A stretch of 64,000 bases of DNA. Origin: Solimicrobium silvestre. GTDB lineage: Bacteria; Pseudomonadota; Gammaproteobacteria; Burkholderiales; Burkholderiaceae_D. The position numbers and the translations under genes are program-made. The stretch lies in the NCBI RefSeq assembly GCF_002976435.1, contig NZ_PUGF01000006.1, positions 1 to 64,000 on the forward strand. The letters are read 5' to 3'. Each line of letters opens with the position of its first letter. Within the stretch, counting starts at the first letter, position 1. Below the pieces are notes generated by a model. That model saw only the letters and a program-made list of their open reading frames with translations, was not told the origin of the DNA and made no database searches. Positions 1 through 28,689 of the stretch are shown here, piece by piece.

Positions 1-87
1 GGAAATCCGCAAAAAGCGCCTATTTTGCGCCTCGACGTTCAAATCGAGACCAAACAAATTCGTCGTTTTATGCAAGTAAATCATTAA
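1..87 (+). CDS. Possible 3' end of a truncated gene
   Basis: Frame 1 is open from the first base and stops at TAA, giving 28 residues (ends QIRRFMQVNH). The peptide is charged and reads like a normal protein C-terminus, but it is too short to assign to a family. The start lies outside the window. It could also be a chance open frame. Confidence 0.35.
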   Translation, partial: GNPQKAPILRLDVQIETKQIRRFMQVNH

Positions 88-2036: not shown

Positions 2037-2241
2037 TGCACAGAGCGTGAAATAGAGTCGACTTTAATTATGACTCTCTGTATGCCCCCACCTGTAACGG
2101 AATCGTATGTGTCACAGCGGGCAATCAAATAACCATTTAAACCGGGAAGGGCATCGCCATAAAAATTATAGCAGTTGGTATCGATTTGATAAAACCATTT
2201 TTTCCAGATTCATGGCATAGATAGTCAATTTTGGATGCGCG

Positions 2242-4689: not shown

Positions 4690-4704
4690 ATGACAATAAA
4701 TCAA

Positions 4705-6089: not shown

Positions 6090-6190
6090 TGATAAATTTC
6101 CCGATTAAAGAGCATAATTTCCTGAGCTATTTTTTAATGAATCAATATATCAATGTAGATTTAAATTAAAGTTGACTACCTATTGCCACT

Positions 6191-9144: not shown

Positions 9145-9334
9145 AAATTAATTTTTAATATAGTCATATAATTCATTACTTAAATCTCAAAATCATTTTT
9201 CAACATAATACGTTGATTTTTTTACATTGAAATATGTTCGTAGCCACAACAGTTAAAACTATAAATTTGACTACAAATATCTTGAAGGGGGCATTCAAAT
9301 TTGTTGAAATGAACAATCAAACTGCGAAACATAA

Positions 9335-10447
9335 TTAAATAGCCAAAATAACTTCAATGACGCGGTTAATTTCTTCATTTGTTAATGCGGGATAAATAGG
9401 AAGGCACAACACTCTTGAAGCAGCATCCGACGCATTGGGTAAATTACTATGTTGCGCAGAAGGTAAGCTTCTATACATTGGGAAATCAGTAATTAATGGG
9501 TAAAAATAGCGGCGGGTAAAAATTCCATGATCTTTCATTTTTTGGAAAAGAGCATCTCTTGAAAGAGGATATGAATGAGAAACTAAAACAGGAAAGTAAG
9601 AATAATTTGCCACTACTTCACCACTATCCGATAAACATTGAATTCCCGAAACAGCGGCTAATCTTTCGCGGTAGATAGTATCAATTTCCTTTCTGCGCAC
9701 CAACGACTGATCCAAGTGCTTTAACTGTAACAATCCAAATGCAGCATTAATTTCACTCATTTTTCCATTTATGCCAGGTGCGACAACGGTCACCTCATCC
9801 ACAATGCCAAAATTCTTGAGCTGATCTATACGCTGTTTTGTTTTCAAGTCAGGGCATACTATTGCTCCACCTTCAAAGGTATTAAAAACTTTTGTTGCAT
9901 GAAAACTCAATACAGCTAAATCACCGTGCCTGAGAATGCTGCCGTTTTCATCCTTTACACCAAACGCATGCGCGGCATCATAGATCACTTTTAAATTATA
10001 AGTGTCGGCAATTTTTTGAATCGCCTTAACATCGCAAGGATGTCCATAACAATGTACTGGCATGATGGCAGTTGTTTGCGGAGTAATGGCCGCCTCAATC
10101 TTTGCCGGATCAAGATTGAGAGTTTCTGGATCAACGTCAACGAATACAGGCTTAATACCATTCCATAATAAAGAGTGCGCAGTCGCCACAAAAGAATATG
10201 GCGTTGTTATCACTTCGCCCGTAATACGCAATGACTGCAATGCAGTCACCAAGGCAATGGTACCATTGGTAAATAACGAAATATACTCAACACCTAAATG
10301 CTCACACAACTCTTTTTCCAATTGCTGATGGAAAGGCCCACCGTTGGTAAGTATTTTATTTGTCCAAATTTTTTCAAGATAAGGAATAAACTCATTCAAA
10401 GGAGGCAATAATGGCTGTGTAACGTAAATATTTGGATTTGTGCTCAT
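9335..10447 (-). CDS. DegT/DnrJ/EryC1/StrS aminotransferase, VioA-like
   Basis: PLP-dependent aminotransferase of 370 residues acting on a dTDP-4-keto-6-deoxy sugar. The start NIYVTQPLLPPLNEFIPYL is the typical opening of VioA-type enzymes (dTDP-4-amino-4,6-dideoxyglucose transaminase). FTNGTIALVTAL binds the cofactor phosphate, VIYDAAHAFG holds the PLP-ring Asp, and LSFHATKVFNTFEGGAI holds the Schiff-base Lys. Its substrate, dTDP-4-keto-6-deoxyglucose, is made by RfbA/RfbB in the same gene run. Followed after about 190 bases by a VioB/PglD-like acyltransferase. VioA identity is likely but not proven. Confidence 0.8.
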   Translation of the reverse strand: MSTNPNIYVTQPLLPPLNEFIPYLEKIWTNKILTNGGPFHQQLEKELCEHLGVEYISLFTNGTIALVTALQSLRITGEVITTPYSFVATAHSLLWNGIKPVFVDVDPETLNLDPAKIEAAITPQTTAIMPVHCYGHPCDVKAIQKIADTYNLKVIYDAAHAFGVKDENGSILRHGDLAVLSFHATKVFNTFEGGAIVCPDLKTKQRIDQLKNFGIVDEVTVVAPGINGKMSEINAAFGLLQLKHLDQSLVRRKEIDTIYRERLAAVSGIQCLSDSGEVVANYSYFPVLVSHSYPLSRDALFQKMKDHGIFTRRYFYPLITDFPMYRSLPSAQHSNLPNASDAASRVLCLPIYPALTNEEINRVIEVILAI

Positions 10448-12475: not shown

Positions 12476-12500
12476 AAATCCTTGTTGATTAATTGAAAAT

Positions 12501-13883
12501 TTATTGCAATTCAAGCTCTGGATAACAGAAAAAATCAACTACGCCAGTTGCCAAATCTTCCGATTCTGGAAGCACTCTGAACATGGCAAAATCGACCACG
12601 CGATGCAAATAAGTTTCATTGCCATTCACATCACCTAGCACGCCCGCATTTAAAAAATAGACACCAGGATTCAAAGAACAACAGAATCGAAATTCGACCC
12701 GATATGATGAGTCGGCATCAACAAAGGCAATACTAGTCTTAACTGCATGAGCAGAAATTCCGCCCCCCAGCTCTACCCCAGAAGTCGTTTTAATCATCAT
12801 ACCAAATCGAACACTGCTCGCACTACTTGAAAATTTAACGTTATATGCATAGCGATAAACTTTGCCTCGTACCAAATTATTAACCTGCTCTCCAGATATA
12901 TTCAATATCGCTGGCATACCAATATTAACCCCGCGGGATTCATATTCTATCGTGCTGCTCGGCTTCAAATTAAAGTCAAAATTTTCACGAATTTCAGTAA
13001 TATGTTTTGTTGAAAGTCTTTCTTCTATCGCATCATTAATCTCATTTTTGCTATTATCAATGGCAGATATAACATAATCATCCGCATGGCGGATTTGTTC
13101 ACGAATTGCATCGTATTTGTCAGCGGGGGCATAAAGCATTTTTTGGTAACGACCAACGATTTGTTTGGGTACACCTATTGCTAATTTCTCACCAGCATCC
13201 AATAACACAGCGCGATCACATAAATCAACAATCGTGCTTCCAGAATGTGACACAAACAAAATTGTCGCCCCACTAGCGCGAATTGCCTCAATACGAGAAA
13301 AACATTTTCTTTGAAATAATTCATCTCCGACAGAAAGTGCTTCATCGACAATTAATATTTCAGGATCTACATTTATAGCAACAGCAAAAGCCAAGCGCAC
13401 CATCATTCCGCTGGAATATGTTTTTGTTGGTTGCTCAACAAATTCACCAATATCAGCAAAAGCAAGAATATCATCGAACCTGGCATCAATTTCTGCCTTG
13501 CTTAAACCGAGTACAGTAGCATTCAGATAAACATTTTCTCGCCCAGTGAATTCAGGATTAAACCCAGCACCAAGTTCCAATAGCGCAGCAACTCGTCCAT
13601 AGGTTTGAATAGTTCCGCCGGTAGGATTAAGCGTTCCGCAAATCATCTGCAGTAATGTTGATTTACCACTGCCATTACGACCAATAATGCCGACTGTTTC
13701 CCCTTTTTTAACTTGAAAAGAAACCTCTTTCAATGCCCAAAATTCGTCAAAGTAATGTTTGGAAGATTTGCCAAATAAACGTCTTAGGCGAGGAAATATA
13801 AACTGTTTTAGCCGATCACGCGGACTGGAATAAACCTGAAAACATTTGCTCAAATTTTCAACTTGAATCGCAATTTCATTCAT
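12501..13883 (-). CDS. wzt: Polysaccharide ABC transporter ATPase Wzt with C-terminal glycan-binding domain
   Basis: 460-residue ATPase of the exporter that moves undecaprenyl-linked glycan across the inner membrane. Walker A GRNGSGKST is at residues 68-76, the signature YSSGMMVRLAF follows, and Walker B is ILIVDEALSVGD. After the ~245-residue nucleotide-binding domain comes a ~200-residue extension ending in a beta-rich domain (from about residue 300), as in Wzt proteins that recognise a chemically capped chain end before export. That extension matters here because the next gene is a possible capping sulfotransferase. It is separated from wzm by an unusual gap of 236 bases with no recognisable gene. 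Confidence 0.9.
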   Translation of the reverse strand: MNEIAIQVENLSKCFQVYSSPRDRLKQFIFPRLRRLFGKSSKHYFDEFWALKEVSFQVKKGETVGIIGRNGSGKSTLLQMICGTLNPTGGTIQTYGRVAALLELGAGFNPEFTGRENVYLNATVLGLSKAEIDARFDDILAFADIGEFVEQPTKTYSSGMMVRLAFAVAINVDPEILIVDEALSVGDELFQRKCFSRIEAIRASGATILFVSHSGSTIVDLCDRAVLLDAGEKLAIGVPKQIVGRYQKMLYAPADKYDAIREQIRHADDYVISAIDNSKNEINDAIEERLSTKHITEIRENFDFNLKPSSTIEYESRGVNIGMPAILNISGEQVNNLVRGKVYRYAYNVKFSSSASSVRFGMMIKTTSGVELGGGISAHAVKTSIAFVDADSSYRVEFRFCCSLNPGVYFLNAGVLGDVNGNETYLHRVVDFAMFRVLPESEDLATGVVDFFCYPELELQ

Positions 13884-14119
13884 GATTGCAAACCACCACT
13901 CAAATATCGTTCATTTCTCATATTATTTAGCTTATTTAATAATTTCACTTTTTTGTGAACAAATATTACTCACCCAAATATCTTTTGTGGCTTGTAATTC
14001 AATCCTGCCATTTCTACCTGCTGGCAGATTAAATGCTTTTTATCCAACCATTTTGCTACGAGCGACGTCGCAATGCATGTTATGCAAACCCATTTTTAGT
14101 CAATTTATTCAAATACTTA

Positions 14120-14974
14120 TCAAAGAACATCAGCAAAACCTTTTCTGGTTTTCTGAAAAAAAGTATATCCAGCCCAAAAAATAATGAGTGCCACAAGCGC
14201 ATATACCCCTAAGCCCACCCAATTTGGCTGAACACCCCACACCAATACATCACGAGCTTGTTCAATAATAAACGTAAGCGGATTTGCCATAATGAAGGGA
14301 CGAAATTGTTCAGGAACAGCAATAACTGGATAAAAAATTGGGGCCAAAAACATTAACACTGTAGTTAAAATAATAATTGTTTGACCAATATCGCGTAAAT
14401 AAACCCCCAGCGATGCCAATATCCATGCTAACCCTGTAATTAGGATTATCATCGGCAAAAGCACTAATGGAATAAAAACAATAGTCCAATGTAAATAACC
14501 ATTAAAAGCAACAAAGGCAATAAGCCAAACTGTAATACTGACCATACAATGAAACAAAGTCGAACCCAAAGCAATTACAGGTAAAATTTCCAAAGGAAAC
14601 ACAACTTTTTTGACGTAATTCACGTTGGATAAAATTAAACTTGGGGCGCGGTTTAACATTTCGGCAAATAAACCTTGCACGATTAATCCTACAAATAACA
14701 CCACGGCAAATTCAGTCTTACTTCCACTCGCCGACATCCCGCCCCAACGTGATTTAAAAATTTCAGAAAACACAAAGGTATACACAATCAACATAAAAAC
14801 TGGGTTGAAAAATGACCATGCCAAACCTAGGGCAGATCCTCTGTAGCGTCCTATAACTTCACGCTTACTCATCTGAAAAATCAATTGACGATTATGCCAG
14901 AGACTTTTTAATAATGAGGTGAAAGATACAGGTTGGTTAGCATGTGGATTTATTGCAATTGAGGATAATGTCAT
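14120..14974 (-). CDS. wzm: Polysaccharide ABC transporter permease Wzm
   Basis: 284-residue ABC-2 type permease, the membrane half of the Wzm/Wzt exporter. SKREVIGRYRGSALGLAWSF is the amphipathic N-terminal segment of the family, followed by about six membrane helices (for example MLIVYTFVFSEIF, LILITGLAWILASLGVYLRD and ALVALIIFWAGYTFF). The start [11 protein letters not shown] overlaps the rfbC stop as ATGA; a longer ATG start would overlap rfbC by 80 bases and is unlikely. Presence of Wzm/Wzt and absence of Wzx/Wzy mean the glycan is completed in the cytoplasm before export. Confidence 0.9.
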   Translation of the reverse strand: MTLSSIAINPHANQPVSFTSLLKSLWHNRQLIFQMSKREVIGRYRGSALGLAWSFFNPVFMLIVYTFVFSEIFKSRWGGMSASGSKTEFAVVLFVGLIVQGLFAEMLNRAPSLILSNVNYVKKVVFPLEILPVIALGSTLFHCMVSITVWLIAFVAFNGYLHWTIVFIPLVLLPMIILITGLAWILASLGVYLRDIGQTIIILTTVLMFLAPIFYPVIAVPEQFRPFIMANPLTFIIEQARDVLVWGVQPNWVGLGVYALVALIIFWAGYTFFQKTRKGFADVL

Positions 14975-15516
14975 TTGAAATACTCGGCATCTGCAAATAA
15001 TTTCGCGTCCAGATCTTTTGAGGATAATGCAGGAATACCTAAATTCGGCCATTTAATAGCAATTTCTGGGTCACTCCATAAAATACTGCGTTCAAACTCA
15101 GGGTTCCAATAATCTGTAGTTTTATACAAAAATTCCGCTGTTTCCGATGTCACCACAAAACCATGCGCAAACCCCTCTGGAATCCAAAACATCCGTTTAT
15201 TTTCGGCTGACAATTCCACGGATACATGCTTACCAAAGGTAGGTGAATTTTTACGGATATCCACAGCTACATCAAATACAGTTCCCTGCACTACTCGAAC
15301 CAATTTCCCTTGCGGTTGTTGAATTTGATAATGCAAACCACGCAAAACATTTTTAACCGAACAGCTATGATTGTCTTGTACAAAATCAACCTCACGCCCA
15401 ACTAACTCGTTAAATTTACGCTGATTAAAACTCTCAAAAAAGAAACCACGATCATCACCAAATACGCGTGGCTCCAAAATTAGCAGATCTGGAATAGATG
15501 TAGTTATTGCTTTCAT
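14971..15516 (-). CDS. rfbC: dTDP-4-dehydrorhamnose 3,5-epimerase
   Basis: 181-residue cupin enzyme, third step of dTDP-L-rhamnose synthesis: it epimerises C3 and C5 of dTDP-4-keto-6-deoxyglucose. [20 protein letters not shown] contains the active-site His region, and [11 protein letters not shown] and [12 protein letters not shown] are RmlC signatures. The length is normal for the family. Start and stop overlap the neighbouring genes by four bases each, so rfbA, rfbC and wzm are tightly coupled. Confidence 0.95.
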
Positions 15517-16403
15517 GGATAAACAACTTCCTTTAATACACGCAACAGATATTGACCGTAACCATTTTTAGCTAATGGCTGCGCTAATTTTTCTAATTGT
15601 TCTGCATTGATGAAATTTTTACGGAATGCAATTTCTTCAGGACAACAAATTTTCAATCCCTGACGATGTTCTATGGTTTGAATAAAATTACTTGCTTCCA
15701 TTAAACTTTCATGTGTCCCTGTATCTAACCAGGCGTATCCGCGTCCCATGATTTCCACATTGAGTTTTTCACGCTCCAGATAAATGCGATTTAAATCTGT
15801 AATTTCCAACTCACCCCGAGCTGACGGCTTTAAGCTTGAAGCAATATCGACAACCTGATTATCATAAAAATATAATCCTGTTACAGCGTAATTACTTTGT
15901 GGATTTTTGGGTTTTTCTTCTAGGCTAGTAGCGCGCCCTTGTGCATCAAAAGCTACCACCCCATAACGTTCTGGATCCTGAACATGGTAAGCAAACACCG
16001 TGGCACCATGTTCACGCTGCATGGCCTGGCTTAATTGAGCATCTAAATTATGACCATAAAAAATATTATCACCAAGCACCAACGCGCTTGGTGAATTACC
16101 AATAAATTCCTTACCAATAATAAACGCTTGCGCCAAACCATCTGGGCTTGGTTGAACTGCGTACTGAAGATTTAACCCCCACTCATGACCATCACCTAAC
16201 AACTGCTCAAAACGTGGTGTATCTTGTGGAGTTGAAATAATAAGAATGTCACGAATTCCCGCCATCATTAGTGTACTGAGAGGGTAGTAAATCATCGGTT
16301 TATCGTAAACAGGGAGTAACTGCTTAGAAACCGCTTGGGTTACAGGGTAAAGTCGCGTACCGGAACCACCGGCTAAGATAATCCCTTTGCGTTGTTTCAT
16401 CAT
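15513..16403 (-). CDS. rfbA: Glucose-1-phosphate thymidylyltransferase
   Basis: 296-residue nucleotidyltransferase that joins dTTP and glucose-1-phosphate to dTDP-glucose, the entry step for rhamnose and for the 4-amino-6-deoxy sugars whose aminotransferases are encoded nearby. [15 protein letters not shown] is the nucleotide-binding loop; [28 protein letters not shown] and [17 protein letters not shown] are RmlA signatures. Two adjacent ATG codons are possible starts; the first overlaps the rfbD stop (TAATG). Confidence 0.96.
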
Positions 16404-17299
16404 TATTTTTCACCTATTTCTGTCAGCATACGAGTTACACCTTTTTGCCAATGTGGAAGTTCTAAATTAAAAGTTTTTTTCAGTTTATGTGTATCTAAAC
16501 GCGAATTGAGTGGACGTGGCGCGGGTAAAGGATAAGCGCTGGTTGGAATTGGTTTTATCGCCTCTGCAGCTACCTTAATTGCCAATCCAGATTCACGTGC
16601 AGATTCAATGACAAAACGTGCATAGTCGTACCACGTAGTTTCACCACCAGCAACCAAATGGTACAAACTTTGCGCTTCTGGTGTTTTAAGTGCCTGCTGT
16701 ACGCAATGTGCGGTTACATCTGCCAGCAAATCAGCGCCCGTTGGCGCACCGATCTGATCATTAATCACATTTAACTGATCACGCTCTTGGGCCAATCGCA
16801 ACATGGTTTTAGCAAAATTTCCGCCTCGTGCAGCATATACCCAACTAGTTCTGAAAATAAGATGCTTACATCCAGAATTGAGAATGAATTCTTCACCCTC
16901 CCGTTTCGTTTTTCCGTAAACACTAAGAGGATGGGGCGCATCCGTTTCCTGCCAATGATGATCACCACTCCCATCGAAAACATAATCCGTTGAATAATGC
17001 ACGAGCAATGCGTCACAACGCGTTGCCTCTTCTGCTAACAGTGCAGGAGCTAACGCATTAACTTTTCGTGTATGCTCCTGATCTGTTTCCGCCTTATCAA
17101 CAGCGGTGTAGGCTGCCGCATTAACGATGATATCGGGGTTAATTTGGCGAATTGTTTGAGCAATGCCATCTAAATTTAATAGGTCACCACAATATTCAGT
17201 ACTTTGCGAACTAAGGGCAATTAGCTCACCTAAAGGAGCCAAGCTACGCTGCAGTTCCCATCCGACCTGGCCATTTTTACCCAATAATAGAATTTTCAC
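16403..17299 (-). CDS. rfbD: dTDP-4-dehydrorhamnose reductase
   Basis: 298-residue NADPH-dependent SDR that makes dTDP-L-rhamnose in the last step. [19 protein letters not shown] is the Rossmann motif, and [20 protein letters not shown] (YxxxK) and [14 protein letters not shown] are RmlD signatures. The start is taken as GTG, because GTGA then overlaps the rfbB stop by four bases, the same pattern as the other rfb junctions; a TTG two codons further up is possible but less likely. Confidence 0.95.
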
Positions 17300-18363
17300 G
17301 CACAACGCTCATTGTAGTTTTTTTCAACCCAAGCCCGGTATTCACCCGATTGAACGTTAGCGACCCATGGCTGGTTAACCAAGTACCAATCCACTGTTTT
17401 ACGTATGCCAGTCTCAAATGTTTCTGATGGTTTCCAGCCTAGTTCACGCTCTATTTTGCTGGCATCAATCGCATAGCGGCGGTCATGCCCCGGTCGATCC
17501 ACGACAGTAATTATTTGCTCTCTATAGCTCTTGCCTTCATCCCGCGGACGTAATTCGTCTAGCAGATCGCATAACGTATGGACAATTTCAATATTAGGTT
17601 TTTCGTTCCAGCCACCTACATTGTAAACTTCGCCCACTACCCCAGCCTCCAAAACACGGCAAATAGCACTACAGTGATCTTTAACATAGAGCCAATCACG
17701 GATTTGCTGACCATCACCATAGATTGGCAACGGCTTGCCTGCAAGTGCATTCACTATCATTAGAGGAATGAGTTTTTCTGGGAAGTGATACGGACCGTAG
17801 TTATTCGAACAGTTGGTCGTCAGTACAGGTAAGCCAAAGGTGTGATGATATGAACGGACTAAATGATCACTTGCAGCCTTACTCGCTGAATAAGGACTAT
17901 TGGGCTCATAACGATGTGTTTCGGTAAAAGCTGGCTCATCTTTTGTAAGCGAACCATAAACTTCATCGGTCGAAACGTGTAAAAAGCGGAATTGTTGTTT
18001 GGCATCACCTTGCAAATTAGCCCAGTAACCACGCACAGCTTCAAGTAAATGGAATGTGCCCACAATATTGGTTTGAATGAAATCTTCTGGCCCAAGAATT
18101 GAACGATCAACATGACTTTCTGCTGCAAAGTTAATAATGGCACGCGGTTGATGCTTGGCAAGTAATGCGGCCACCAATACAGAATCTCCAATGTCACCCT
18201 GTACAAAAATATGCCGATTATCCCCAATAAGCGAACTCAAATTTTCACGATTGCCGGCATAAGTAAGCGCATCCAGATTAATCACTGTTTCATCGGATTG
18301 GGAAAGCCAGTCCAGAACAAAATTTGAACCAATAAAGCCAGCACCGCCTGTTACTAATATCAT
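17296..18363 (-). CDS. rfbB: dTDP-glucose 4,6-dehydratase
   Basis: 355-residue extended SDR that turns dTDP-glucose into dTDP-4-keto-6-deoxyglucose, the branch point for rhamnose, Qui4N and Fuc4[20 protein letters not shown] binds [14 protein letters not shown] and [12 protein letters not shown] (YxxxK) carry the catalytic residues, and [18 protein letters not shown] is a family signature. It is the first gene of the long minus-strand run. AGGTG lies five bases upstream of the ATG, and a TATAAT box lies about 125 bases upstream. Confidence 0.97.
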
Positions 18364-18718: not shown

Positions 18719-18792
18719 TTAACAGGGATTTTTACAAACTTTTTGCCCACAAATTTTGTTATGGGTTAAATTACACGAATTAACAGGGATTT
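18719..18792 (+). repeat. Direct repeat TTAACAGGGATTT upstream of cysC
   Basis: The 13-base sequence TTAACAGGGATTT occurs at 18719-18731 and again at 18780-18792, 61 bases apart, just before the cysC start. The copies may be a regulator-binding pair or the trace of a small duplication. The rest of the 470-base rfbB-cysC interval shows no gene. Confidence 0.5.
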
Positions 18793-18833
18793 ACGCACTC
18801 GCTACTAAACCGTTTTCAATTTCCATTAATTTC

Positions 18834-19469
18834 ATGCACATAACTACACGCACAATTCCAGTACAAAACCCAAACGAAAATAATGATAAGGTGTGCCCCA
18901 CAGAACATTTCACCATTACGCCAACAGATCGTGAAAAGCGCCAGGGGCATCACTCCAAAGTAATTTGGCTAACAGGATTGTCAGGTGCGGGCAAATCAAC
19001 AATCGCCAATGCCCTGGAAATTAAGCTGCATTTCGCCAATAAATTCACCTATATATTAGATGGCGACAACGTTCGTAAAAGTTTAAATAAAGACCTCGGA
19101 TTTGACGCACCTAGTCGCACAGAAAATATTCGCCGCATATCAGAAGTTGCCAACATGATGAGGGAAGCTGGCTTGATCGTCATCGTCACTGCAATCTCCC
19201 CTTTTCGGATTGATCGGGAACAGGCAAAAAAATGCATTGGATCTGAACATTTTATCGAAGTACATATCAGCACGCCGCTGCAGGTATGCGAACAAAGAGA
19301 CCCGAAAGGCCTTTATAAAAAATCAAGGTCAGGACAACTTTCCAACATGACCGGCATAGACAGCCCTTATGAATTACCTGAAAACCCGGCAATCGCGATA
19401 GACTCTAGCCGGACTGACATTGAAGCTAGTGCGGAACTTATTTTCAATTTAATCTACTCATCAGAATAA
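18834..19469 (+). CDS. cysC: Adenylylsulfate (APS) kinase
   Basis: 211-residue kinase that phosphorylates APS to PAPS, the sulfate donor of sulfotransferases. GLSGAGKST (residues 48-56) is the P-loop, YILDGDNVRKSLNKDLGF the APS-binding motif, and VTAISPFRIDREQAK holds the catalytic Ser; ELPENPAIAIDSS is a late family motif. The ATG of MHITTRT is preferred; an earlier TTG would add 26 unlikely residues. No cysD, cysN or other assimilation gene is adjacent, so this copy is probably for glycan sulfation, serving the sulfotransferase of the same locus. That link is inferred from context. Confidence 0.93.
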   Translation: MHITTRTIPVQNPNENNDKVCPTEHFTITPTDREKRQGHHSKVIWLTGLSGAGKSTIANALEIKLHFANKFTYILDGDNVRKSLNKDLGFDAPSRTENIRRISEVANMMREAGLIVIVTAISPFRIDREQAKKCIGSEHFIEVHISTPLQVCEQRDPKGLYKKSRSGQLSNMTGIDSPYELPENPAIAIDSSRTDIEASAELIFNLIYSSE

Positions 19470-20192: not shown

Positions 20193-21221
20193 TTAATGAC
20201 CTGATGCAAAGTTAATCTGATATTTACGTTCGTGTGCCAAGAGCGCCCAAATGATCCGAGCATTTTTATTCGCCAAAGCGACTACGGCAACGTTGAAATT
20301 TCTGCGTTCCATCAGATTAGCCAACCAACTTCCCGCATGATGCACTTTGCGTTCAGCTGCCCGAAGAACGGATCTCGCGCCGTGTATCAGCAATGTCCTT
20401 AAATAAGAATCGCCGCGCTTACTTATTCCCAATAGCATCTGCTTACCGCCACTAGAATGCTGACGTGGCACCAACCCTAACCATGCAGCCAATTGCCGCC
20501 CATCTTTGAAGCACTTCGCATCGCCAATTGATGCCACGATCGCAGTTGCCGTTATCGGACCAACGCCAGGTATTTCTTCTAGTTTTTTACTTGCTTCGTT
20601 TTGTTTGTGCCAAATTTTAATTTGTACTTCTAATTCGCCAACTTGACGATCAAGTTCTTTTAAATGATCACCAAGTCGCTGGATTAATTGACAAAAAACT
20701 CCTGGAAGCTCATTTGCACATTCCTCCAGAATATGAGGAAGACGTTTTGTAACGTTGCAAATTCCCTGTCGTATCACAATGCAGTATTCAGACAATAAAT
20801 CGCGAATCTGATTGGCTTGAGCCGTGCGCGATTTAACGAAACCTTGGCGTGCTCGGTGCAAAGACAGCACTGACTGTTGCTCAACATTCTTGATCGGCAC
20901 AAACCGCATATTTGGTCTACCTACAGCTTCGCAAATTGCCTCAGCATCCGCTGCATCATTCTTATTCGTTTTAACGTAAGGCTTTACATATTGAGGAGCC
21001 ATTAATTTGACAGTGTGCCCTTGCGACTGCAATTTTCTCGCCCAATAGTGTGCGCTAGCGCAAGCTTCCATACCGACTAAGCAAGGACTTAATTTAATAA
21101 AAAATTCCAAAACTTGATCGCGCCTCAGGGCTTTTCTAAGTACGGCTTTCCCTTGATCATTCACCCCATGTACTTGAAATACGTTTTTTGCCAGATCAAT
21201 CCCGAATGTAGTAATCTTCAT
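20193..21221 (-). CDS. IS110-family (IS1111 group) transposase
   Basis: 342-residue serine/DEDD-type recombinase that moves the element. The N-terminal RuvC-like DEDD domain starts with TTFGIDLAKNVFQVHG and includes GMEACASAHYWARKLQ and KTNKNDAADAEAICEAV with catalytic acidic residues. The C-terminal Tnp20 domain has LEEIPGVGPITATAIVASIG and GLVPRQHSSGGKQMLLGISKRG in two parts, the latter containing the Ser used in strand exchange. The length is normal and no frameshift is seen, so it may be active. Confidence 0.95.
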   Translation of the reverse strand: MKITTFGIDLAKNVFQVHGVNDQGKAVLRKALRRDQVLEFFIKLSPCLVGMEACASAHYWARKLQSQGHTVKLMAPQYVKPYVKTNKNDAADAEAICEAVGRPNMRFVPIKNVEQQSVLSLHRARQGFVKSRTAQANQIRDLLSEYCIVIRQGICNVTKRLPHILEECANELPGVFCQLIQRLGDHLKELDRQVGELEVQIKIWHKQNEASKKLEEIPGVGPITATAIVASIGDAKCFKDGRQLAAWLGLVPRQHSSGGKQMLLGISKRGDSYLRTLLIHGARSVLRAAERKVHHAGSWLANLMERRNFNVAVVALANKNARIIWALLAHERKYQINFASGH

Positions 21222-21393: not shown

Positions 21394-22947
21394 ATGTATT
21401 TAACAACTAATAATAAGCATGCGCTATTTTTAACATTAGCTTTAGCCACTTTTATTGTTTCTACAATTTTTATATGGCAAGGAAATAAAGGATTCAGTTT
21501 ATGGGATGAGGGTTTTCTTTGGTATGGCGCTCAACGCACAATGCTAGGTGAGGTGCCAATTAGAGATTTCTTGGCCTATGACCCAGGTAGGTATTATTGG
21601 TCAGCAACTTTAATGAGTATATTTGGAAATAACGGCATTATCTCATTACGAGTTACCGTAGCAATATTCCAAACGTTTGGCTTATTCATAGGTCTTTTTC
21701 TAATTTCCATATCCACAAAAAAACAAAACCTCATTTATTTACTCTTATCTTGTGCAGTACTTTTCATATGGATGCTCCCAAGACACAAGCTATTTGATAT
21801 ATCATTATCAATATTTATTATTGGGATTTTGACTTTTCTCATTGAAAATCCAACAAATAAACGTTTTTTCATCACTGGATTTTGCATTGGTTTAATTGCA
21901 TTTTTTGGGCGAAATCATGGCCTTTATGCAGTACTCGGGATGATCGGTGTAATGCTTTGGTTAAACATTAAAAAAAACCAAAATATAAATTTTTTGAAAA
22001 ATTTTTTGGTTTGGATTACAGGTGTCATTATAGGTTTTTCACCTATGATTTTAATGATTGTATTCGTACCAGGATTCGCTCTTGCATTTTTGGATAGTAT
22101 CCGCTTTTTGTTTGAAATTAAAGCTACAAACCTCCCTCTTCCTATCCCTTGGCCTTGGTTAATTCAATTTAATACTTTACCGTTTAACGAATCTATACGA
22201 GGTTTTTTAGTTGGCATAATTTTTATCGGTGTTCTTGTCTTTGGAGTGTTATCCATTGCTTGGGTATTTTTGGGGAAAATTAAAAACAAACAAATTCCCT
22301 CCGCATTTGTCGCAACTTCATTTTTAGCTCTTCCATATGCACAATTCGCCTATTCCAGAGCGGATGTTAGTCATCTTGCCCAAGGTATTTTCCCATTTCT
22401 TATTGGCGGCTTAGTTCTTTTGTCCTCTCAACCCTCAAAAATTAAATGGTCAATAACGATAATGTTTTGTATAGGAAGTGTTTGGATATTGTTAGCATAT
22501 CAACCTGATTGGCAATGCATTGAAAACAAACAATGTGTGGAAATCAAAATTTCTAACAATAAACTGGAAGTAGATCCATCTACAGCAAATGACGTTGCTC
22601 TCTTACGTAAGCTAGTGAACCAATATGCGCCTAATAATGAAAGTTTTATTGCGGCTCCTTTCTGGCCAGGTGCATATGCATTGCTTGATCGCAAATCCCC
22701 GATGTGGGAAATTTACGCACTATTTCCCCGCTCACAAGCTTTCGAACAAACTGAAATCGAACGTATAAAAAAGACAAATCCTAGGTTTGCTATTGTTTTA
22801 GATATACCACTTGATGGGCACAACGAATTGCGTTTCAAGAACACTCATCCACTCATTCACCAGTATATTGTTGACAACTTCGATCTAATTCCTAACTCGC
22901 TCAATCAAACCTACCAAATTTACAAGTCTAAAGAGGGGAGTCTATGA
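21394..22947 (+). CDS. GT-C type membrane glycosyltransferase (GT39/ArnT-like)
   Basis: 517-residue polytopic inner-membrane protein with about ten hydrophobic helices. Just after the first helix lies [20 protein letters not shown], the acidic first periplasmic loop (D/E) typical of GT-C enzymes that take sugars from a polyprenyl-phosphate carrier; [15 protein letters not shown] follows. The C-terminal ~130 residues are soluble and periplasmic. It starts a tightly packed plus-strand operon that also encodes a GtrB/ArnC-like transferase and a small EamA-type transporter, so it probably adds the flipped sugar to the glycan in the periplasm. Acceptor and sugar are unknown. The family is recognised from topology and the loop motif, not from high identity. 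Confidence 0.75.
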
Positions 22948-23642
22948 AGAAAATCGCCATTCTTCAATCCAACTATATCCCTTGGAAGGGATATTTTGAC
23001 ATGATATCTGCCGTTGACGAGTTCATTCTCTACGACGACATGCAATACACGCGACGTGACTGGCGTAACCGCAACCAAATCAAGACACCGCAAGGATTAC
23101 TATGGATAACAGTTCCAGTTTTAGTCAAAGGTAAGTACCATCAAAAAATCAGGGATACTGAGATAAATGACAATGATTGGGCTGCAAACCATTGGAAAGC
23201 ATTGGTTCAAAACTATCGGCGTGCGCCACATTTTGAAGAAATTGCGTTATGGCTGGAACCGATTTATTTAACTAAGACCTATACCCATATCTCGCAACTT
23301 AATCGCAATCTAATTGAAGCTATTTGCAATTACTTGCATATAACAACTCGAATAACCAACTCATGGGACTATAACCTGCTTGATGATGGTAAAACTGAGC
23401 GTTTAGCCGATCTCTGCAAACAGGCAGGTGGCTCTGAATACATTTCAGGACCATCAGCCAAAGATTATGTTGAAGAGCGTGTATTCACCGATATGGAAAT
23501 ACAACTTAGTTGGTTTAACTATAATGACTATCCCGTATATCCACAACTTTGGGGAGAATTCACACATGGAGTCACCATTCTTGACCTTTTGTTTAATTGC
23601 GGGAAAGATGCTCATAAATATATGAGGCATGTGAGCCCATGA
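22944..23642 (+). CDS. WbqC-like family protein
   Basis: 232-residue cytoplasmic protein of the WbqC family (PF08889), found in O-antigen and exopolysaccharide loci; its reaction is not known to me. [40 protein letters not shown] and [10 protein letters not shown] are family signatures. It overlaps the preceding GT-C gene and the following glycosyltransferase by four bases each, so all three are likely made together. Confidence 0.88.
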
Positions 23643-24568
23643 AACTATCAATAGTTACTACACTCTATCAATCGGCATCCTATATCAATGAGTTTCATCG
23701 CAGAGTAAGTGCCGTTGCCAATCAACTAGTTGAAGAAAATTACGAAATTATTTTAGTAAATGATGGCTCTCCCGATAACAGTCTTGAGCTTGCTTTACAT
23801 CTTACCAAAAACGACAGCCATGTTGTCGTCATTGATCTTTCACGTAACTTCGGTCATCACAAGGCGATGATGACAGGGCTTGCTCATGCGAAGGGAGAAT
23901 TAGTATTACTCATTGACAGCGATTTGGAAGAAGAACCAGAATATCTAATTACATTCGCCGACAAAATGCTAAAGGAAGGCTGCGATGTAGTGTATGGAGT
24001 TCAAGAGAAGCGTAAGGGGAATTGGTTTGAACGCAGGAGTGGTCAGTTATTCTATCGTTTTTTTAAAGCGCTGACAGGCTTAGCGCTACCGGAAAACATA
24101 GTTACGGCAAGACTAATGACCCGTCGTTATGTTGCAGCTTTATTACAGCATAAGGAAAGAGAGGTTTTCATGGCCGGTCTATGGCATATCACTGGATTTG
24201 AACAACGCCCACACTTAGTAAAAAAACATAGCTGCAGTGAAACCACCTATACCTTCCGCAGAAAAATGTCTCTGCTAGTCAATTCAGTGACCTCATTTAG
24301 TAATGCACCGTTGGTCGGTATTTTCTATATTGGTGTTTCGATCTCCTTGGTTGCATTTTTTTACACTTGCTATCTTGCAATTCAATGGGCATTCCTTGCC
24401 AAGCCCTTAAGTGGTTGGACATCAGTCATGGCATCAATCTGGCTGTTGGGTGGAATGATCATTTCTTTTATCGGCGTGGTTGGTATTTATCTCTCTAAAA
24501 TATTTTCTGAAACCAAACAGCGCCCCTACACGATCATCAGGCAGATTTATGCTAAACAAAAAAACTGA
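23639..24568 (+). CDS. Polyprenyl-phosphate glycosyltransferase, GtrB/ArnC-like
   Basis: 309-residue GT2 enzyme with a cytoplasmic GT-A domain ([62 protein letters not shown] as the DxD region) followed by two membrane helices ([20 protein letters not shown] and the segment around [20 protein letters not shown]). This architecture is that of GtrB, ArnC and DPM1-like enzymes, which load a sugar from its nucleotide onto undecaprenyl phosphate. Together with the GT-C gene and the EamA-type transporter in the same operon it makes a three-component glycosylation system. Confidence 0.85.
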
Positions 24569-25178
24569 CCTATTAACCGAAATTGCGGAATATTACTCAA
24601 CCAAATTGGCAGAGCATGGTGAGACACCTCTCGGGGTTGATTGGAATGGCGAAGATAGTCAACTACTACGTTTTGAGCATCTATGTAAAATTATTGATCC
24701 AATAAACCGCTTTTCATTAAATGACCTGGGTTGTGGTTACGGAGCTCTTTATGACTTTCTTCTTAAAAAGTACACCCAATTATCCTATTCAGGAATCGAT
24801 GTTGCCGAAGTGATGATAAGTGCTGCTGAGCAACGCTATAAAGACCAACCTTTAGCTCGTTTTATTATTTCACACGAACCTGATCAAATTGCCGATTATT
24901 CGGTAGCAAGCGGTATCTTTAACGTCCGCTTGGACAAAACAGATGACGAATGGCTGTCTTATCTCAAAACCACTCTTGACGTACTGAATCACAGTAGCCG
25001 CAAAGGCTTCGCTTTCAACTGCTTAACTTCCTATTCGGACAAAGATAGAATGCGCGATTATCTATATTACGCAGACCCTTGTATATTATTTGATTTGTGC
25101 AAAAGTCGTTATTCTCGCAATGTTGCTCTACTTCATGATTACGGATTGTATGAGTTTACAATTTTAGTTAGGAAATAA
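24549..25178 (+). CDS. Class I SAM-dependent methyltransferase
   Basis: 209-residue cytoplasmic methyltransferase. Motif I is LNDLGCGYGALYDFLLKKY, followed by YSGIDVAEVMISAAEQRY (acidic residue that binds the SAM ribose). The start MLNKKTDLL overlaps the end of the glycosyltransferase gene by 20 bases; an earlier start would overlap by about 90. The operon position suggests that it methylates a sugar or sugar precursor. The target cannot be told from sequence. Confidence 0.85.
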   Translation: MLNKKTDLLTEIAEYYSTKLAEHGETPLGVDWNGEDSQLLRFEHLCKIIDPINRFSLNDLGCGYGALYDFLLKKYTQLSYSGIDVAEVMISAAEQRYKDQPLARFIISHEPDQIADYSVASGIFNVRLDKTDDEWLSYLKTTLDVLNHSSRKGFAFNCLTSYSDKDRMRDYLYYADPCILFDLCKSRYSRNVALLHDYGLYEFTILVRK

Positions 25179-25180
25179 AC

Positions 25181-25846
25181 ATGAAAAAATCTTTAGTAAT
25201 ATTTGGCGTCGGTGACATCGCCCAGCTTGCACATTTTTACTTTAATAGCGATTCAGAATATCAAGTTGTTGCTTTTACGGTTGACGCAGCCTATCTAACG
25301 AAAACAAATTTTTGCGGATTGCCTGTTATCGCCTTTGAGAAAATTGGAGAACATTACACACCAGACAATTACGAGGTTTTTGTTGCGCTCAGCTACTCCA
25401 AACTCAACGCTATACGCAAGGAAAAATATCTGCTCGCTAAAGCTTTGGGTTACCGGATAGCGAGCTACATTAGTTCTCGCGCCACTGTTTTAAATGAAGG
25501 ACGTATCGGTGAAAACTGTTTTATTTTCGAAGATAACACCATTCAACCGTTCGTTAACATTGGCAACAATGTTACGCTTTGGAGTGGTAATCACATTGGA
25601 CACCACTCCATTATCAAGGATCACTGCTTCATTGCCTCTCATGTGGTAATTTCAGGCGGTGTAGAGATTGGGGAGCAATGCTTTGTCGGGGTAAATGCAA
25701 CGCTGCGTGATCATATCAAAGTTGGCGAAAAATGCGTAATTGGTGCCGGAGCTTTACTGCTTTCCAACGCAGATCCGGAAGGTGTATATATTGGCCTTGA
25801 AACAAATCGATCAAAAGTGCCAAGTACGAGGCTAAGTCATATATGA
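25181..25846 (+). CDS. NeuD/PglD-like sugar acyltransferase
   Basis: 221-residue protein with an N-terminal Rossmann-like domain (LVIFGVGDIAQLAHFYF) and a C-terminal left-handed beta-helix (IGENCFIFEDNTIQPF, IGNNVTLWSGNHIGHHSII, VGVNATLRDHIKVGEKC). The His-rich NHIGHHS segment likely holds the catalytic base. Such enzymes acylate nucleotide-linked amino sugars; the WecE-type aminotransferase at the end of this cassette could supply the substrate. The stop overlaps the next start (ATGA). Confidence 0.82.
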   Translation: MKKSLVIFGVGDIAQLAHFYFNSDSEYQVVAFTVDAAYLTKTNFCGLPVIAFEKIGEHYTPDNYEVFVALSYSKLNAIRKEKYLLAKALGYRIASYISSRATVLNEGRIGENCFIFEDNTIQPFVNIGNNVTLWSGNHIGHHSIIKDHCFIASHVVISGGVEIGEQCFVGVNATLRDHIKVGEKCVIGAGALLLSNADPEGVYIGLETNRSKVPSTRLSHI

Positions 25847-26778
25847 GCACTAAATGGCAAAAACTTGGTCTATTGTATTGCCCTTCTGAGATTGGTCAAC
25901 ACCCCAAACTCTTATCACACGCATCAAATCCATTACCAGTGTTAATCGACGGGGATGTCTATCGCGTGTTTTTTAGCGGTAGAGACGCTGATAATAGATC
26001 ATCAGTAGGCGCCGTCGATGTCGATGTCGTCAAACATAAAATCGTTCAAGTTCATCGCCAGCCTTTTTTTGAGCATGGACAGGAAGGCAGTTTTTTTGCC
26101 GATGGCGTGAGCATTGGTAACTGCTACGAAATTGATGGTAAGCGTTACATGCTGTTTATGGGATGGCAAAACCCATTCAATAGGCACTGGCGCGGCGATA
26201 TTGGCCGACTTATCGTGAATTCTGATTTGACGCTAGAGTTAGATAGTGACACCCCCTTTATGTCCTTAGACGAAGTCGATCCCATTAGCCTTTCTTATCC
26301 ATGGGTGCTCAGGAATGAAAATGGTGGTTACAACATGTGGTATGGATCAACGACAACATGGGATGCTGGCAATAAAGAAATGCTGCACGTAATCAATTAC
26401 GCCTCATCTTCTGATGGAAATCACTGGGAACGTGAGGGCTTGGCCGTTCCATATGAACTTGGCACAGCTCAAGCTTTTTCAAGACCTACAGTAGCATATT
26501 ATGCTCAAGGATATGAAATGTGGTTTTCCTACCGTAGTGGATCAGATATGAAATACCGAATTGGATATGCCAATAGTAAAAATTCAAAGGAGTGGAAACT
26601 TCGATTGGAAGAGGCAGGAATTAATGTTTCCGCAGCTGGGTGGGATTCTGAAATGATTGAGTACCCATTCGTGTTCAAGCATAAAGGCATCAGATATATG
26701 TTGTATAATGGCAATTCTTACGGAAAAACTGGCTTTGGCTTAGCAATAGAGGAAGATGAGCATGGCGCGTCCAAGTGA
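25843..26778 (+). CDS. Five-bladed beta-propeller, glycoside hydrolase-like protein
   Basis: 311-residue protein whose repeated blocks (VLIDGDVYRVFFSGRD, YMLFMGWQNPF, YNMWYGSTTTW, YEMWFSYRSG, RYMLYNGNSYG) look like the blades of GH43/GH32/GH130-type five-bladed propellers. There is no signal peptide, so it would act in the cytoplasm. It lies between a sugar acyltransferase and a small transporter gene, both overlapping. It may trim or rearrange a sugar intermediate, or have lost catalysis; catalytic carboxylates were not assigned. Similar cytoplasmic propellers occur in O-antigen loci without known function. Confidence 0.7.
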   Translation: MSTKWQKLGLLYCPSEIGQHPKLLSHASNPLPVLIDGDVYRVFFSGRDADNRSSVGAVDVDVVKHKIVQVHRQPFFEHGQEGSFFADGVSIGNCYEIDGKRYMLFMGWQNPFNRHWRGDIGRLIVNSDLTLELDSDTPFMSLDEVDPISLSYPWVLRNENGGYNMWYGSTTTWDAGNKEMLHVINYASSSDGNHWEREGLAVPYELGTAQAFSRPTVAYYAQGYEMWFSYRSGSDMKYRIGYANSKNSKEWKLRLEEAGINVSAAGWDSEMIEYPFVFKHKGIRYMLYNGNSYGKTGFGLAIEEDEHGASK

Positions 26779-27136
26779 TTACATTTATATTTTGGCCACT
26801 ATAGGATTCACCGTTTATGGACAACTGATTCTTAAATGGCGTATTTCCCATTATGGACCGCTCCCAATGGCCCTATTAGAAAAGCTAAAGTTTTTGACAC
26901 TTCTTTTATTAGATCCCGCAATTTTTTCAGGATTTTTCGCAGGCTTTATTGCTTCACTCGCCTGGATGTCGGCAATGACAAAATTTGATTTGAGTCATGC
27001 ATACCCATTCATGAGTCTTAACTTCGTTGTGGTCCTGTTGCTGAGCGGCTGGTTCTTAAACGAACCAATTACTCTCCAAAAAACACTAGGTATCCTATTA
27101 ATTGTGGTTGGGACTGTGGTGGCCGCACGTGGCTGA
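26756..27136 (+). CDS. Small EamA/SMR-type transporter (ArnE-like flippase candidate)
   Basis: 126-residue integral membrane protein with four predicted helices (IYILATIGFTVYGQLILKW; LLLLDPAIFSGFFAGFIASL; YPFMSLNFVVVLLLSGWFL; LGILLIVVGTVVAARG). ALAW-like and HAYPFMSLNFV features match half-size EamA/ArnE proteins, which flip undecaprenyl-phosphate-linked sugars as dimers. It overlaps the propeller gene by 23 bases. In this operon it is the natural partner of the GtrB/ArnC-like and GT-C proteins. Assignment as a flippase is inferred from context. Confidence 0.78.
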   Translation: MSMARPSDYIYILATIGFTVYGQLILKWRISHYGPLPMALLEKLKFLTLLLLDPAIFSGFFAGFIASLAWMSAMTKFDLSHAYPFMSLNFVVVLLLSGWFLNEPITLQKTLGILLIVVGTVVAARG

Positions 27137-27537
27137 CTTAAGATCAATAGGCACGCCTTGGATGACTTAACTCACCAAGTTATCCTATGGAATGAAATCG
27201 TTTATCCAGTCTTGGGCGGAGTATCTTCTTTGGCATATAATTTAATGCCGTGGGTGCTTGACTTCTAGCACTTTTCCCCGTTAATTCCTTAGAAAAAAAC
27301 GACCATAGCATGAGTGATCTACTTGTAAGCGAAGGTGATATGACAATTATTGCTAATGAACAGCGTTTTAATTTTCTTAGTACTTATTACAAATGACATT
27401 TGCATGGAGATTTGACAGAGCTGTTGGTTCAAAAATACGGTTAAATTCAATTTAGCAGGTGTCGATGTGTGACTACTACATGACGATCACATTGTATATA
27501 AGTGAAATTCTTGAAGTACGACCCTAAGGAACAGGAT
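27137..27537. other. Intergenic stretch before the WecE-like gene
   Basis: About 400 bases with several stop-rich short frames only. One of them (ATG at 27310, 28 codons) has no recognisable match, and the stretch may contain decayed coding DNA. It separates the last gene of the glycan cassette from the aminotransferase gene, which has its own Shine-Dalgarno (AAGGA). Confidence 0.4.
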
Positions 27538-28689
27538 ATGACCAATAAACGAATCCCTTTTAACTGGCCACATATGACCGGAAAAGAGCTATATTACATC
27601 GCCGAGGCTCACTTTAATGGTCGCTTGGCAGGTGATGGCCCGTTCACAAAACTTTGCCATAACTGGCTTCAGGAGCGTACAGGCAGCAGTAAGGCTTTGT
27701 TGACCCACTCTTGCACTGCTTCTTTGGAAATGGCAGCCTTACTACTGGATATTCAGCCTGGGGATGAGATCATCATGCCATCCTACACGTTTGTTTCCAC
27801 CGCAAATGCATTCGTATTAAGAGGAGGCATTCCTGTTTTCATTGATATTCGTGAAGATACACTAAATATCAATGAGAGATTCATTGAACCTGCAATAACC
27901 CCACGCACTCGTGCGATTGTCCCTGTACATTACGCTGGCATTGCCTGCGAAATGGATACCATCATGTCAATTGCTAAGAATCATAATTTAAAGGTAGTTG
28001 AAGACGCTGCACAAGGCGTAATGGCGACTTATAAAGGGCGTGCTCTTGGTAGCATTGGTGATCTTGGTGCTTATAGTTTCCACGAAACAAAAAATGTAAT
28101 TTCAGGAGAAGGAGGGGCACTGCTGATTAACGACCATAAGCTTTCCTTACGTGCTGAAATTATTAGAGAAAAAGGTACTAATCGAAGCCAATTTTATCGA
28201 GGTGAAGTGGATAAATATACCTGGCAAGAAATAGGATCATCATTTTTACCCGGTGAATTAATTGCCGCATTTCTTTGGGCTCAATTTGAAGAAGCAGATA
28301 AAATTACACAAAAACGAATGGTAGCTTGGCAGCGATATCATGAGTTACTTGCCCCTCTGGAATCTAGTGGAGTAATTCGTCGTCCGGTTATTCCCAAAGA
28401 ATGCCATCATAATGCCCATATGTATTACGTAATACTTGGACCTGAAATCGATCGACAAAAAATATTGGATGTACTCAATCGCAATGACATTAATGCAGTC
28501 TTCCATTACGTTCCATTGCACTCATCTCCAGCAGGGCTTCGTTACGCAAGGGCGCATGGATCCCTTGAAATAACAAATAAACTATCTGAACGATTATTGC
28601 GTTTACCTCTTTGGGTAGATATTACAGAATCAAAGCAAAATAAAGTTATTGATGTCCTTAAAGAAGCAATTTATAGCGCCACACATTAG
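27538..28689 (+). CDS. wecE: dTDP-4-amino-4,6-dideoxygalactose transaminase
   Basis: 383-residue PLP enzyme that aminates dTDP-4-keto-6-deoxyglucose to dTDP-Fuc4N. It is strikingly similar to E. coli RffA/WecE by recall: LLTHSCTASLEMAALLLDIQ, IIMPSYTFVSTANAFVLRGG, IVPVHYAGIACEMDTIM and VVEDAAQGVMATYKGRALG. SFHETKNVISGEGG carries the Schiff-base Lys. The ATG of MTNKRIPFNWPH has AAGGA about nine bases upstream; a GTG 12 codons earlier lacks one. Its substrate comes from RfbA/RfbB of the same locus. It ends the polysaccharide region and is followed by a terminator. Confidence 0.9.
   Translation: MTNKRIPFNWPHMTGKELYYIAEAHFNGRLAGDGPFTKLCHNWLQERTGSSKALLTHSCTASLEMAALLLDIQPGDEIIMPSYTFVSTANAFVLRGGIPVFIDIREDTLNINERFIEPAITPRTRAIVPVHYAGIACEMDTIMSIAKNHNLKVVEDAAQGVMATYKGRALGSIGDLGAYSFHETKNVISGEGGALLINDHKLSLRAEIIREKGTNRSQFYRGEVDKYTWQEIGSSFLPGELIAAFLWAQFEEADKITQKRMVAWQRYHELLAPLESSGVIRRPVIPKECHHNAHMYYVILGPEIDRQKILDVLNRNDINAVFHYVPLHSSPAGLRYARAHGSLEITNKLSERLLRLPLWVDITESKQNKVIDVLKEAIYSATH

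Follow-up and report, generated by a model that had tools for sequence, protein, structure and literature searches.

A gene cassette of Solimicrobium silvestre that recurs in unrelated bacteria, predicted to serve three-component glycosylation with a Fuc4N-derived sugar

We analysed a stretch of 64,000 nucleotides from Solimicrobium silvestre (contig NZ_PUGF01000006.1, positions 1 to 64,000; the window hereafter), in which eight genes at 21394-28689 had been read, in an original prediction made from the letters alone, as a glycosylation cassette with sugar-tailoring genes. We found that this cassette is real and recurrent, and that it also occurs on conjugative plasmids; its mechanism is of a known kind, while its sugar kit and modular design are apparently new. 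Our reading, to which we give a probability of roughly 0.7, is that the cassette has spread horizontally and serves extracytoplasmic glycosylation of the three-component type, its sugar being derived from 4-amino-4,6-dideoxy-D-galactose (Fuc4N); this sugar would be added to a polysaccharide outside the inner membrane, most likely an O-polysaccharide exported by Wzm/Wzt.

All eight open reading frames (ORFs) of the named families were present where they had been placed. Family calls came from Pfam and NCBIfam searches of the window proteins, and the locus reads as follows.

21394-22947, + strand: GT-C glycosyltransferase, 517 amino acids; predicted transferase onto the acceptor glycan
22944-23642, + strand: WbqC family protein (PF08889)
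23639-24568, + strand: GT2 polyprenyl-phosphate sugar transferase of the GtrB/ArnC type (PF00535, 2e-29)
24549-25178, + strand: S-adenosylmethionine (SAM) methyltransferase, predicted sugar O-methyltransferase (PF08242, 1e-7)
25181-25846, + strand: NeuD/PglD-like left-handed beta-helix acyltransferase (TIGR03570); predicted N-acetylation
25843-26778, + strand: five-bladed propeller of the GH130/GH43/GH32 kind (profile match), adjoining NeuD
26756-27136, + strand: half-size EamA (SMR-like), predicted flippase of undecaprenyl-phosphate (Und-P) sugar (PF00892, 2e-11, above cut-off)
27250-27474, + strand: decayed C-terminus of a membrane-protein gene, GTC3 (tblastn with the GTC3 of locus L034)
27502-28689, + strand (ORF; probable ATG at 27538): WecE, dTDP-4-amino-4,6-dideoxygalactose transaminase (TIGR02379)

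The first seven genes look like a coupled unit because neighbours overlap, by 4, 4, 20, 4 and 23 bases, or stand 2 bases apart (methyltransferase and NeuD). The methyltransferase start is taken as the ATG at 24549, the listed ORF from a TTG at 24480 being too long. The aminotransferase ORF is set off from EamA by 365 bases, so the single coupled operon that had been predicted holds for seven genes, with the aminotransferase outside it behind a gene scar.

The cassette was also sought elsewhere. When species genomes were scanned with the GT-C alignment, 133 relatives emerged, of which the best 80 were kept with at most 10 kb on each side, some contigs ending sooner; cassette genes were sought in these GT-C loci by tblastn. 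Co-occurrence of the eight families, which the original prediction had named as a check, was found in the same order in metagenome-assembled genomes (MAGs) of Deltaproteobacteria (L016), Desulfocapsaceae (L020), Gammaproteobacteria (L043) and Synechococcales (L062, with NeuD split in two pieces), and in Pusillimonas (L034). With its gene order repeated in several loci, the cassette is more than a chance association. In these same-order loci WecE is preceded by one or two additional genes for membrane proteins. In Pseudomonas koreensis (L033) the order is kept with the propeller reduced to a 46-residue remnant. A locus was counted as a core cassette if its WbqC reached 50% identity over 80% of the length or its methyltransferase 50% identity over 35%, a rule that selected 23 of 82 loci (the 80 scan loci together with L009 and L010; window excluded). 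Intact cassettes are found, for instance, in Pusillimonas sp. TS35 (EamA form) and Nitrosomonas europaea ATCC 25978 (GtrA form). At 60% coverage, WbqC was present in 22 of these 23, ArnC in 21, WecE in 20, the methyltransferase in 17 and NeuD in 13. Compared with L016 and L020, the window's WbqC, ArnC, NeuD, EamA and WecE are 77-83% identical and its GT-C 61-63%, a difference that suggests horizontal spread of the cassette.

Two other anchors agree on the cassette. With the methyltransferase as query, 12 of 369 genomes of the class gave matches, the window's own included; within flanks of 1.5 kb, WbqC adjoined all five other matches at 58-72% identity and ArnC four of them, and three of the six weak matches (29-36%) had a WbqC of 30-35%. 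WbqC as plasmid query returned 66 records, four of them at 60-80%, and we examined the cassettes in three of the four records at 60% or more, the fourth lacking annotation. A Peteryoungia plasmid carries WbqC-GT2-methyltransferase-NeuD-propeller-EamA, with no WecE in the stretch. The plasmid of Rhizobium sp. Q54 (L122), typed as conjugative, carries WbqC-GT2-methyltransferase-NeuD-propeller-GtrA-second methyltransferase-rmlB-rmlA-WecE, and on a Neorhizobium plasmid WbqC, GT2, methyltransferase, rmlA, WecE and RmlB are interspersed with other genes. The cassette is a module that could alter the surface antigens of environmental bacteria, and it travels on conjugative plasmids. The remark that the gene set was not a recognised one was fair: it recurs widely, and we found no description of it in open PubMed Central text, the only text searched. 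As side observations, IS110 genes flank the plasmid cassettes L120 and L122, and an IS110 transposase also lies directly upstream of the window cassette; two putative viral contigs of IMG/VR (L012 and L013) have WbqC, NeuD and propeller adjoining, plus a PhyH-like gene.

Three-component extracytoplasmic glycosylation employs a GT-C-fold enzyme with an acidic residue in the first outer loop, a polyprenyl-phosphate sugar synthase with a C-terminal membrane anchor, and a small flippase (GtrA, SMR/EamA or MATE), and the cassette has all three. For the first of these, sequence families were silent: down to E 0.1 neither Pfam nor NCBIfam matched the GT-C protein, a search of solved structures with its profile found nothing at E 1 or below, and no relative stood among solved sequences (one chance-level row, E 0.49). 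The assignment was therefore settled by fold. An AlphaFold2 (AF2) model of the 517 residues, aligned with 61 relatives, had a pLDDT of 94.5, and the top 32 rows of a Foldseek search with it were all GT-C-fold chains. These matches comprise oligosaccharyltransferases and complexes holding them, AftA/B/D, Emb, ArnT (5f15, TM 0.57), ALG enzymes and three chains of GPI-transamidase, whose U subunit we take to be GT-C-like. VIA-align gave Z 18.1 with Pmt1-Pmt2 (349 residues aligned, 4.3 Å) and Z 15.2 with ArnT (399 aligned, 4.9 Å). The protein had been called ArnT/GtrC-like in the original prediction, and ArnT is among its structural matches. An acidic pair, D38-E39, follows helix 1; in an alignment of the window's GT-C with 61 of the best 80 relatives (A5, 62 rows), D38, D58, R66 and H327 are invariant and E39 is kept in at least 90%, so the acidic residue of the catalytic loop is in place.

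The other two components match as well, which supports the predicted trio alongside its sugar-tailoring genes. Among solved structures the GT2 protein is nearest to sll0501 (5ekp, 165 bits), which we take to be GtrB, and to ArnC (9hwj, 134 bits), in keeping with the ArnC/GtrB-like enzyme foreseen, and hydropathy places two C-terminal hydrophobic stretches in it, from residues 223 and 263. The transporter had been called ArnE-like; it is indeed a half-size EamA, but it stands nearer to ArnF (49.7 bits, 4e-13; cut-off 99) than to ArnE (30.1 bits), both scores falling below the cut-offs. The hydropathy rule used for membrane proteins counted only 3 stretches in it.

We next consider the slots of the cassette that are exchanged among relatives. 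Of the 23 core loci, 9 have EamA as flippase, 10 have GtrA, none has both and 4 have neither; a second methyltransferase goes with GtrA (10/10) and never with EamA (0/9). The exclusion of EamA and GtrA has a Fisher P of 0.0016, with relatedness ignored. Two weak matches in L015 (EamA 34%, formyltransferase 29%), which lie beyond the cassette and on the other strand, were removed from the slot counts by hand. The L026 EamA match (41%, 58 residues, about 9 kb from the GT-C gene) fell under the 55% limit set, and the exclusion does not depend on it, because L026 has no GtrA. Alignment A4 omits L009, L010, L014 and L023. A tree of WbqC, ArnC and WecE from 19 cassettes implies at least five changes of flippase type over 18 rows labelled by hand; most of its backbone is unresolved, 4 of 16 inner branches being starred, and the main support for this number comes from the sister pair L062/L063 (100/100), which differs in flippase. 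In Gtr systems the flippase is proposed to be GtrA (PMC11127046, in excerpt); that GtrA takes the EamA slot in sister cassettes argues, by analogy, that the lone EamA half would be the flippase here.

NeuD and the propeller go together: the 13 core loci (of 23) with NeuD are also those with the propeller, which is a remnant in one. A formyltransferase, complete in L042 and L078 but only partial in L044 and L045, never stands alongside them; that of L078, the sole one checked, was confirmed by Pfam (PF00551). This is as expected if NeuD and the formyltransferase both acylate the amine. Exchanges of this kind, between EamA and GtrA or between NeuD with its propeller and the formyltransferase, show which genes may share a job. 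The window's NeuD-like protein belongs to the NeuD/PglD family (TIGR03570, 180.5 bits; cut-off 160.8) and is nearest to PglD; among solved structures it matches the 4-amino-sugar acetyltransferase 3bss (UDP-N-acetylbacillosamine N-acetyltransferase, E 4e-14) and the similar 2npo and 2vhe. The propeller had only weak Pfam and NCBIfam matches; its profile (A7) found the 1,2-beta-oligomannan phosphorylase 9fj8, of GH130 type (E 1.5e-8), and other five-bladed glycosidases. It could be a GH130-like phosphorylase or transferase, or a scaffold.

The identity of the aminotransferase bears on the sugar. It scores 650.7 bits with the WecE model TIGR02379 (cut-off 434.85) and 206 bits with the ArnB model (cut-off 631), and among solved structures it matches WecE at 510 (4piw) and 500 bits (6blg) and ArnB at 161. 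Models and structures alike thus rule out the ArnB-like role proposed for it earlier. Since it scores as WecE and not ArnB, the predicted sugar lies on the Fuc4N pathway, and is not one like 4-amino-4-deoxyarabinose (Ara4N). There are four WecE matches in the genome, of which the cassette copy alone is above the cut-off. RmlA and RmlB genes at 15513-18363, each above its family cut-off, are predicted to supply dTDP-4-keto-6-deoxyglucose, the substrate of WecE, and because WecE is present with rmlA and rmlB nearby, dTDP-Fuc4N is the predicted product. The WecE product might instead serve neighbouring cytoplasmic glycosyltransferases, the GT-C trio adding a plain hexose; a scar does separate WecE from the coupled genes, and GtrB-type enzymes are known for glucose (PMC11127046, in excerpt). 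We think this quite improbable, as WecE, at 60% of its length or more, is near the set in 20 of the 23 core loci and on 2 of the 3 plasmids. Elsewhere in the same glycan region, at 8449-10447 on the minus strand, a further hexapeptide acyltransferase stands with a further DegT aminotransferase, which at 149 bits does not reach the TIGR02379 cut-off; the two suggest another amino sugar.

In the order of reactions that we infer, RmlA and RmlB would yield dTDP-4-keto-6-deoxyglucose and WecE would convert it to dTDP-Fuc4N. This sugar would be tailored by NeuD (along with the propeller), by WbqC and by the methyltransferase, through N-acylation, perhaps via an amino-acid amide, and O-methylation, although the exact acyl and methyl groups are conjectural. 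The ArnC/GtrB-like enzyme would then load it onto undecaprenyl phosphate, a probable EamA dimer would flip the product, and the GT-C enzyme would add the sugar to a polysaccharide outside the inner membrane, most likely the neighbouring Wzm/Wzt-exported O-polysaccharide. Transfer of an Und-P-sugar to a polymer on that side is predicted by analogy with known systems.

The Arn pathway (ArnABCDEFT), which puts L-Ara4N onto lipid A, has ArnC-like, ArnF-like and ArnT-fold parts in common with the cassette, and an amino sugar protected by acylation (by formyl in a variant among sister cassettes). The cassette differs in having WecE and not ArnB, one flippase half, and a different sugar; ArnA and ArnD are not among its eight proteins, the rest of the genome not having been searched for them. 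The dTDP-Fuc4NAc route of enterobacterial common antigen, RmlA/RmlB/WecE/WecD, uses the same aminotransferase family and precursor, whereas the cassette has a NeuD/PglD-like acyltransferase in place of WecD and its sugar is predicted to go to Und-P via a GtrB-like enzyme and not to lipid III. Also close are Gtr glucosylation (GtrA/GtrB/Gtr*) and the galactosylation of Klebsiella ABC O antigens (PMC11127046, in excerpt), with which the cassette shares a GtrB-like GT2, a small flippase and a GT-C enzyme, and GtrA itself fills the flippase slot of sister cassettes. In contrast to these systems it has its own WecE, NeuD, methyltransferase, WbqC and propeller, and its predicted sugar is Fuc4N-derived and not glucose or galactose. 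The GT136 pentofuranose systems, as described for Citrobacter youngae in the same excerpted source, resemble it in post-polymerisation addition at a Wzm/Wzt O-antigen locus and in having a sugar-changing accessory enzyme; they use Und-P-ribofuranose (Und-P-Ribf) derived from phosphoribosyl pyrophosphate (PRPP) and a MATE flippase, neither of which is found in the cassette. What the cassette would add to three-component glycosylation is a self-contained amino-sugar branch, and its swaps include support for a lone EamA half as flippase.

The scar before WecE records a further gene. In many relatives the space between flippase and WecE holds a long membrane protein, or two, with sizes of about 540 (GTC3) and 750 amino acids (GTC2; both are working names). 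Pfam found nothing in the GTC2 and GTC3 proteins tested; for two GTC2 proteins hydropathy counted 8-10 hydrophobic stretches, and for two GTC3 proteins it counted 7. In the window, 27250-27474 matches the C-terminus of the L034 GTC3 with internal stops (tblastn, E 7e-9), and the 365-base gap is 67% identical to L016, whose own GTC3 is fragmented, over 162 columns (blastn). Because the gap holds a C-terminal remnant with stops, we conclude that the GTC3 gene has been lost in the window. Could the whole window copy be a decaying remnant whose product is no longer made? GTC3 has decayed, the IS110 transposase lies about 170 bases upstream, and relatives show losses (L017, L019, L023, L025, L030, L031), among them WbqC remnants after GT-C in L019, L025, L030 and L031 and a WecE remnant in L017. 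We regard this as unlikely given that all eight genes are open over their full length and that cassettes without GTC3 exist elsewhere (L020, L042). At 11511-12254 of L023, by eye, a WbqC ends like the C-terminus of WecE, an apparent deletion fusing the cassette ends.

Several points weigh against our reading of the cassette as a three-component system with a Fuc4N-derived sugar. The whole scheme is computational, known here from genes and models. The conservation of D38, E39 and R66 among the scan matches is partly due to selection, because the scan of GT-C loci used the peptides L[WQ]DEGFLW and YD[PV]GRY[YF]W; L009 and L010, found without these patterns, retain D38, E39, D58, R66 and H327. 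There is a single EamA half here, whereas the Arn pathway uses two, ArnE and ArnF. The decay of GTC3 means that the cassette may be partly or wholly inactive in the window. The cassette GT-C was found in none of the three plasmid cassettes examined, and on the Neorhizobium plasmid the beginning of WbqC is overlapped by a different hydrophobic protein, also long, which by eye has a DD pair close to its N-terminus; such a pattern would fit a GT-C enzyme that is the part matched to the local acceptor. Finally, both Wzm and Wzt were matched in 13 of 80 GT-C loci and in 4 of the 23 core cassettes, and the acceptor might therefore be something other than an ABC-exported glycan.

The neighbourhood that bears on the acceptor is as follows.

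12501-15052, - strand: Wzt, which has a carbohydrate-binding domain at its C-terminus, together with Wzm; the pair is a candidate for export of the acceptor glycan (Wzt_C PF14524, 7e-27; ABC_tran; ABC2_membrane)
14971-18363, - strand: rmlC, rmlA, rmlD and rmlB (TIGR01221, TIGR01207, TIGR01214 and TIGR01181, all above cut-off)
20193-21221, - strand: IS110-family transposase, about 170 bases upstream of the cassette

In L016, Wzm and Wzt are 71% and 74% identical to those of the window and have the same position and orientation relative to the cassette, and a sulfotransferase-like protein of the window is shared as well (47% over 379 amino acids). It is somewhat doubtful that the sugar goes to a different acceptor, be it lipid A or core, a glycoprotein, a pilin or a Wzx/Wzy glycan, with the nearness of the cassette to Wzm/Wzt reflecting a mere clustering of surface-glycan genes. 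Most cassettes elsewhere do show no Wzm/Wzt within the flanks covered, and ArnT itself modifies lipid A; the sharing of Wzm, Wzt and the sulfotransferase-like protein along with the cassette in L016 points to a working link. Excerpts of PMC11127046 place the three-component system of Citrobacter youngae in a Wzm/Wzt O-antigen locus and cite a galactose system for ABC-dependent Klebsiella O antigens. With these precedents and the L016 locus, an ABC-exported O-polysaccharide is a plausible acceptor.

Finally, we asked what WbqC might contribute. The protein matches PF08889 at 3e-83, and this family was found in 27 of 27 rows of its alignment, with no second family in more than one row. The AF2 model (232 amino acids, pLDDT 93.3) was compared with 1000 chains by VIA; the best was BshC (4wbd, Z 13.8, rmsd 3.2, 218 of 232 residues aligned), followed by tRNA synthetases and phosphopantetheine adenylyltransferases at Z 7.8 and lower. 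BshC, of bacillithiol synthesis, adds cysteine to glucosaminyl-malate, forming an amide on an amino sugar. WbqC may share its fold, to judge by the VIA match, and amide formation may by the same token be proposed for WbqC; it differs in size, the six Bacilli BshC used having 538-558 amino acids, and in lacking any detectable sequence relationship. Foldseek with the WbqC model gave no match at E 0.001 or better, and hhalign against the six BshC gave a probability of 0.2% (E 0.31) in a different region. Local hhalign, hhalign with alternatives and global mode were all null, so a sequence link was rejected and only a likeness of fold is proposed. A blastn search for WbqC in E. coli genomes found no match, which at that distance is uninformative, and we found no paper naming BshC and WbqC together in the open literature searched.

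Two O antigens, of Shigella dysenteriae 7 and E. coli O121, which we presume to be alike, bear on this question. In the accessible part of PMC5532660, the WbqC family is described as functionally uncharacterised, and the EPS273 locus has WbqC, cited to the Shigella dysenteriae 7 cluster, together with a WecE-type aminotransferase, as the cassette does. In that of PMC3210612, N-acetylglycyl on 4-amino-4,6-dideoxyglucose (Qui4N) is referenced to the Shigella-like O antigen of E. coli O121. Given the likeness to BshC in predicted fold, the WecE-type aminotransferase in both loci and N-acetylglycyl on Qui4N, our best guess for the WbqC reaction is the hypothesis of an ATP-dependent addition of an amino acid, as an amide, to a 4-amino sugar. 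More broadly, and at less than even odds, WbqC may be a BshC-fold amide-forming enzyme that places an amino acid on the 4-amino group of dTDP-linked or lipid-linked 4-amino-4,6-dideoxy sugars, which NeuD or the formyltransferase would then cap; the cassette would be a plug-in kit donating N-aminoacyl, O-methyl Fuc4N to the surface glycans of several phyla. This proposes a concrete function for a widespread family that has had none.

Beside Wzt, at 10460-12538 on the minus strand, lies the sulfotransferase-like protein, of 692 amino acids. Its N-terminal, sulfotransferase-like part scores 23.7 bits with PF00685 (cut-off 22), and it further contains an extended coiled coil of repetitive sequence; an APS kinase gene (PF01583) is nearby at 18756-19469 on the plus strand. 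Homologues of the sulfotransferase-like N-terminus occur in 8 of the 13 loci with both Wzm and Wzt (L016, L030, L069, L072, L074, L080, L087 and L089). Chain terminators of the WbdD type, with a coiled-coil ruler, accompany Wzt with a carbohydrate-binding domain (PMC11127046, in excerpt), and the protein recalls such a terminator, with sulfate as a possible cap. In L025 its place beside Wzt/Wzm is taken by an ORF (1-6751, minus strand) that joins methyltransferase, coiled-coil and several glycosyltransferase domains.

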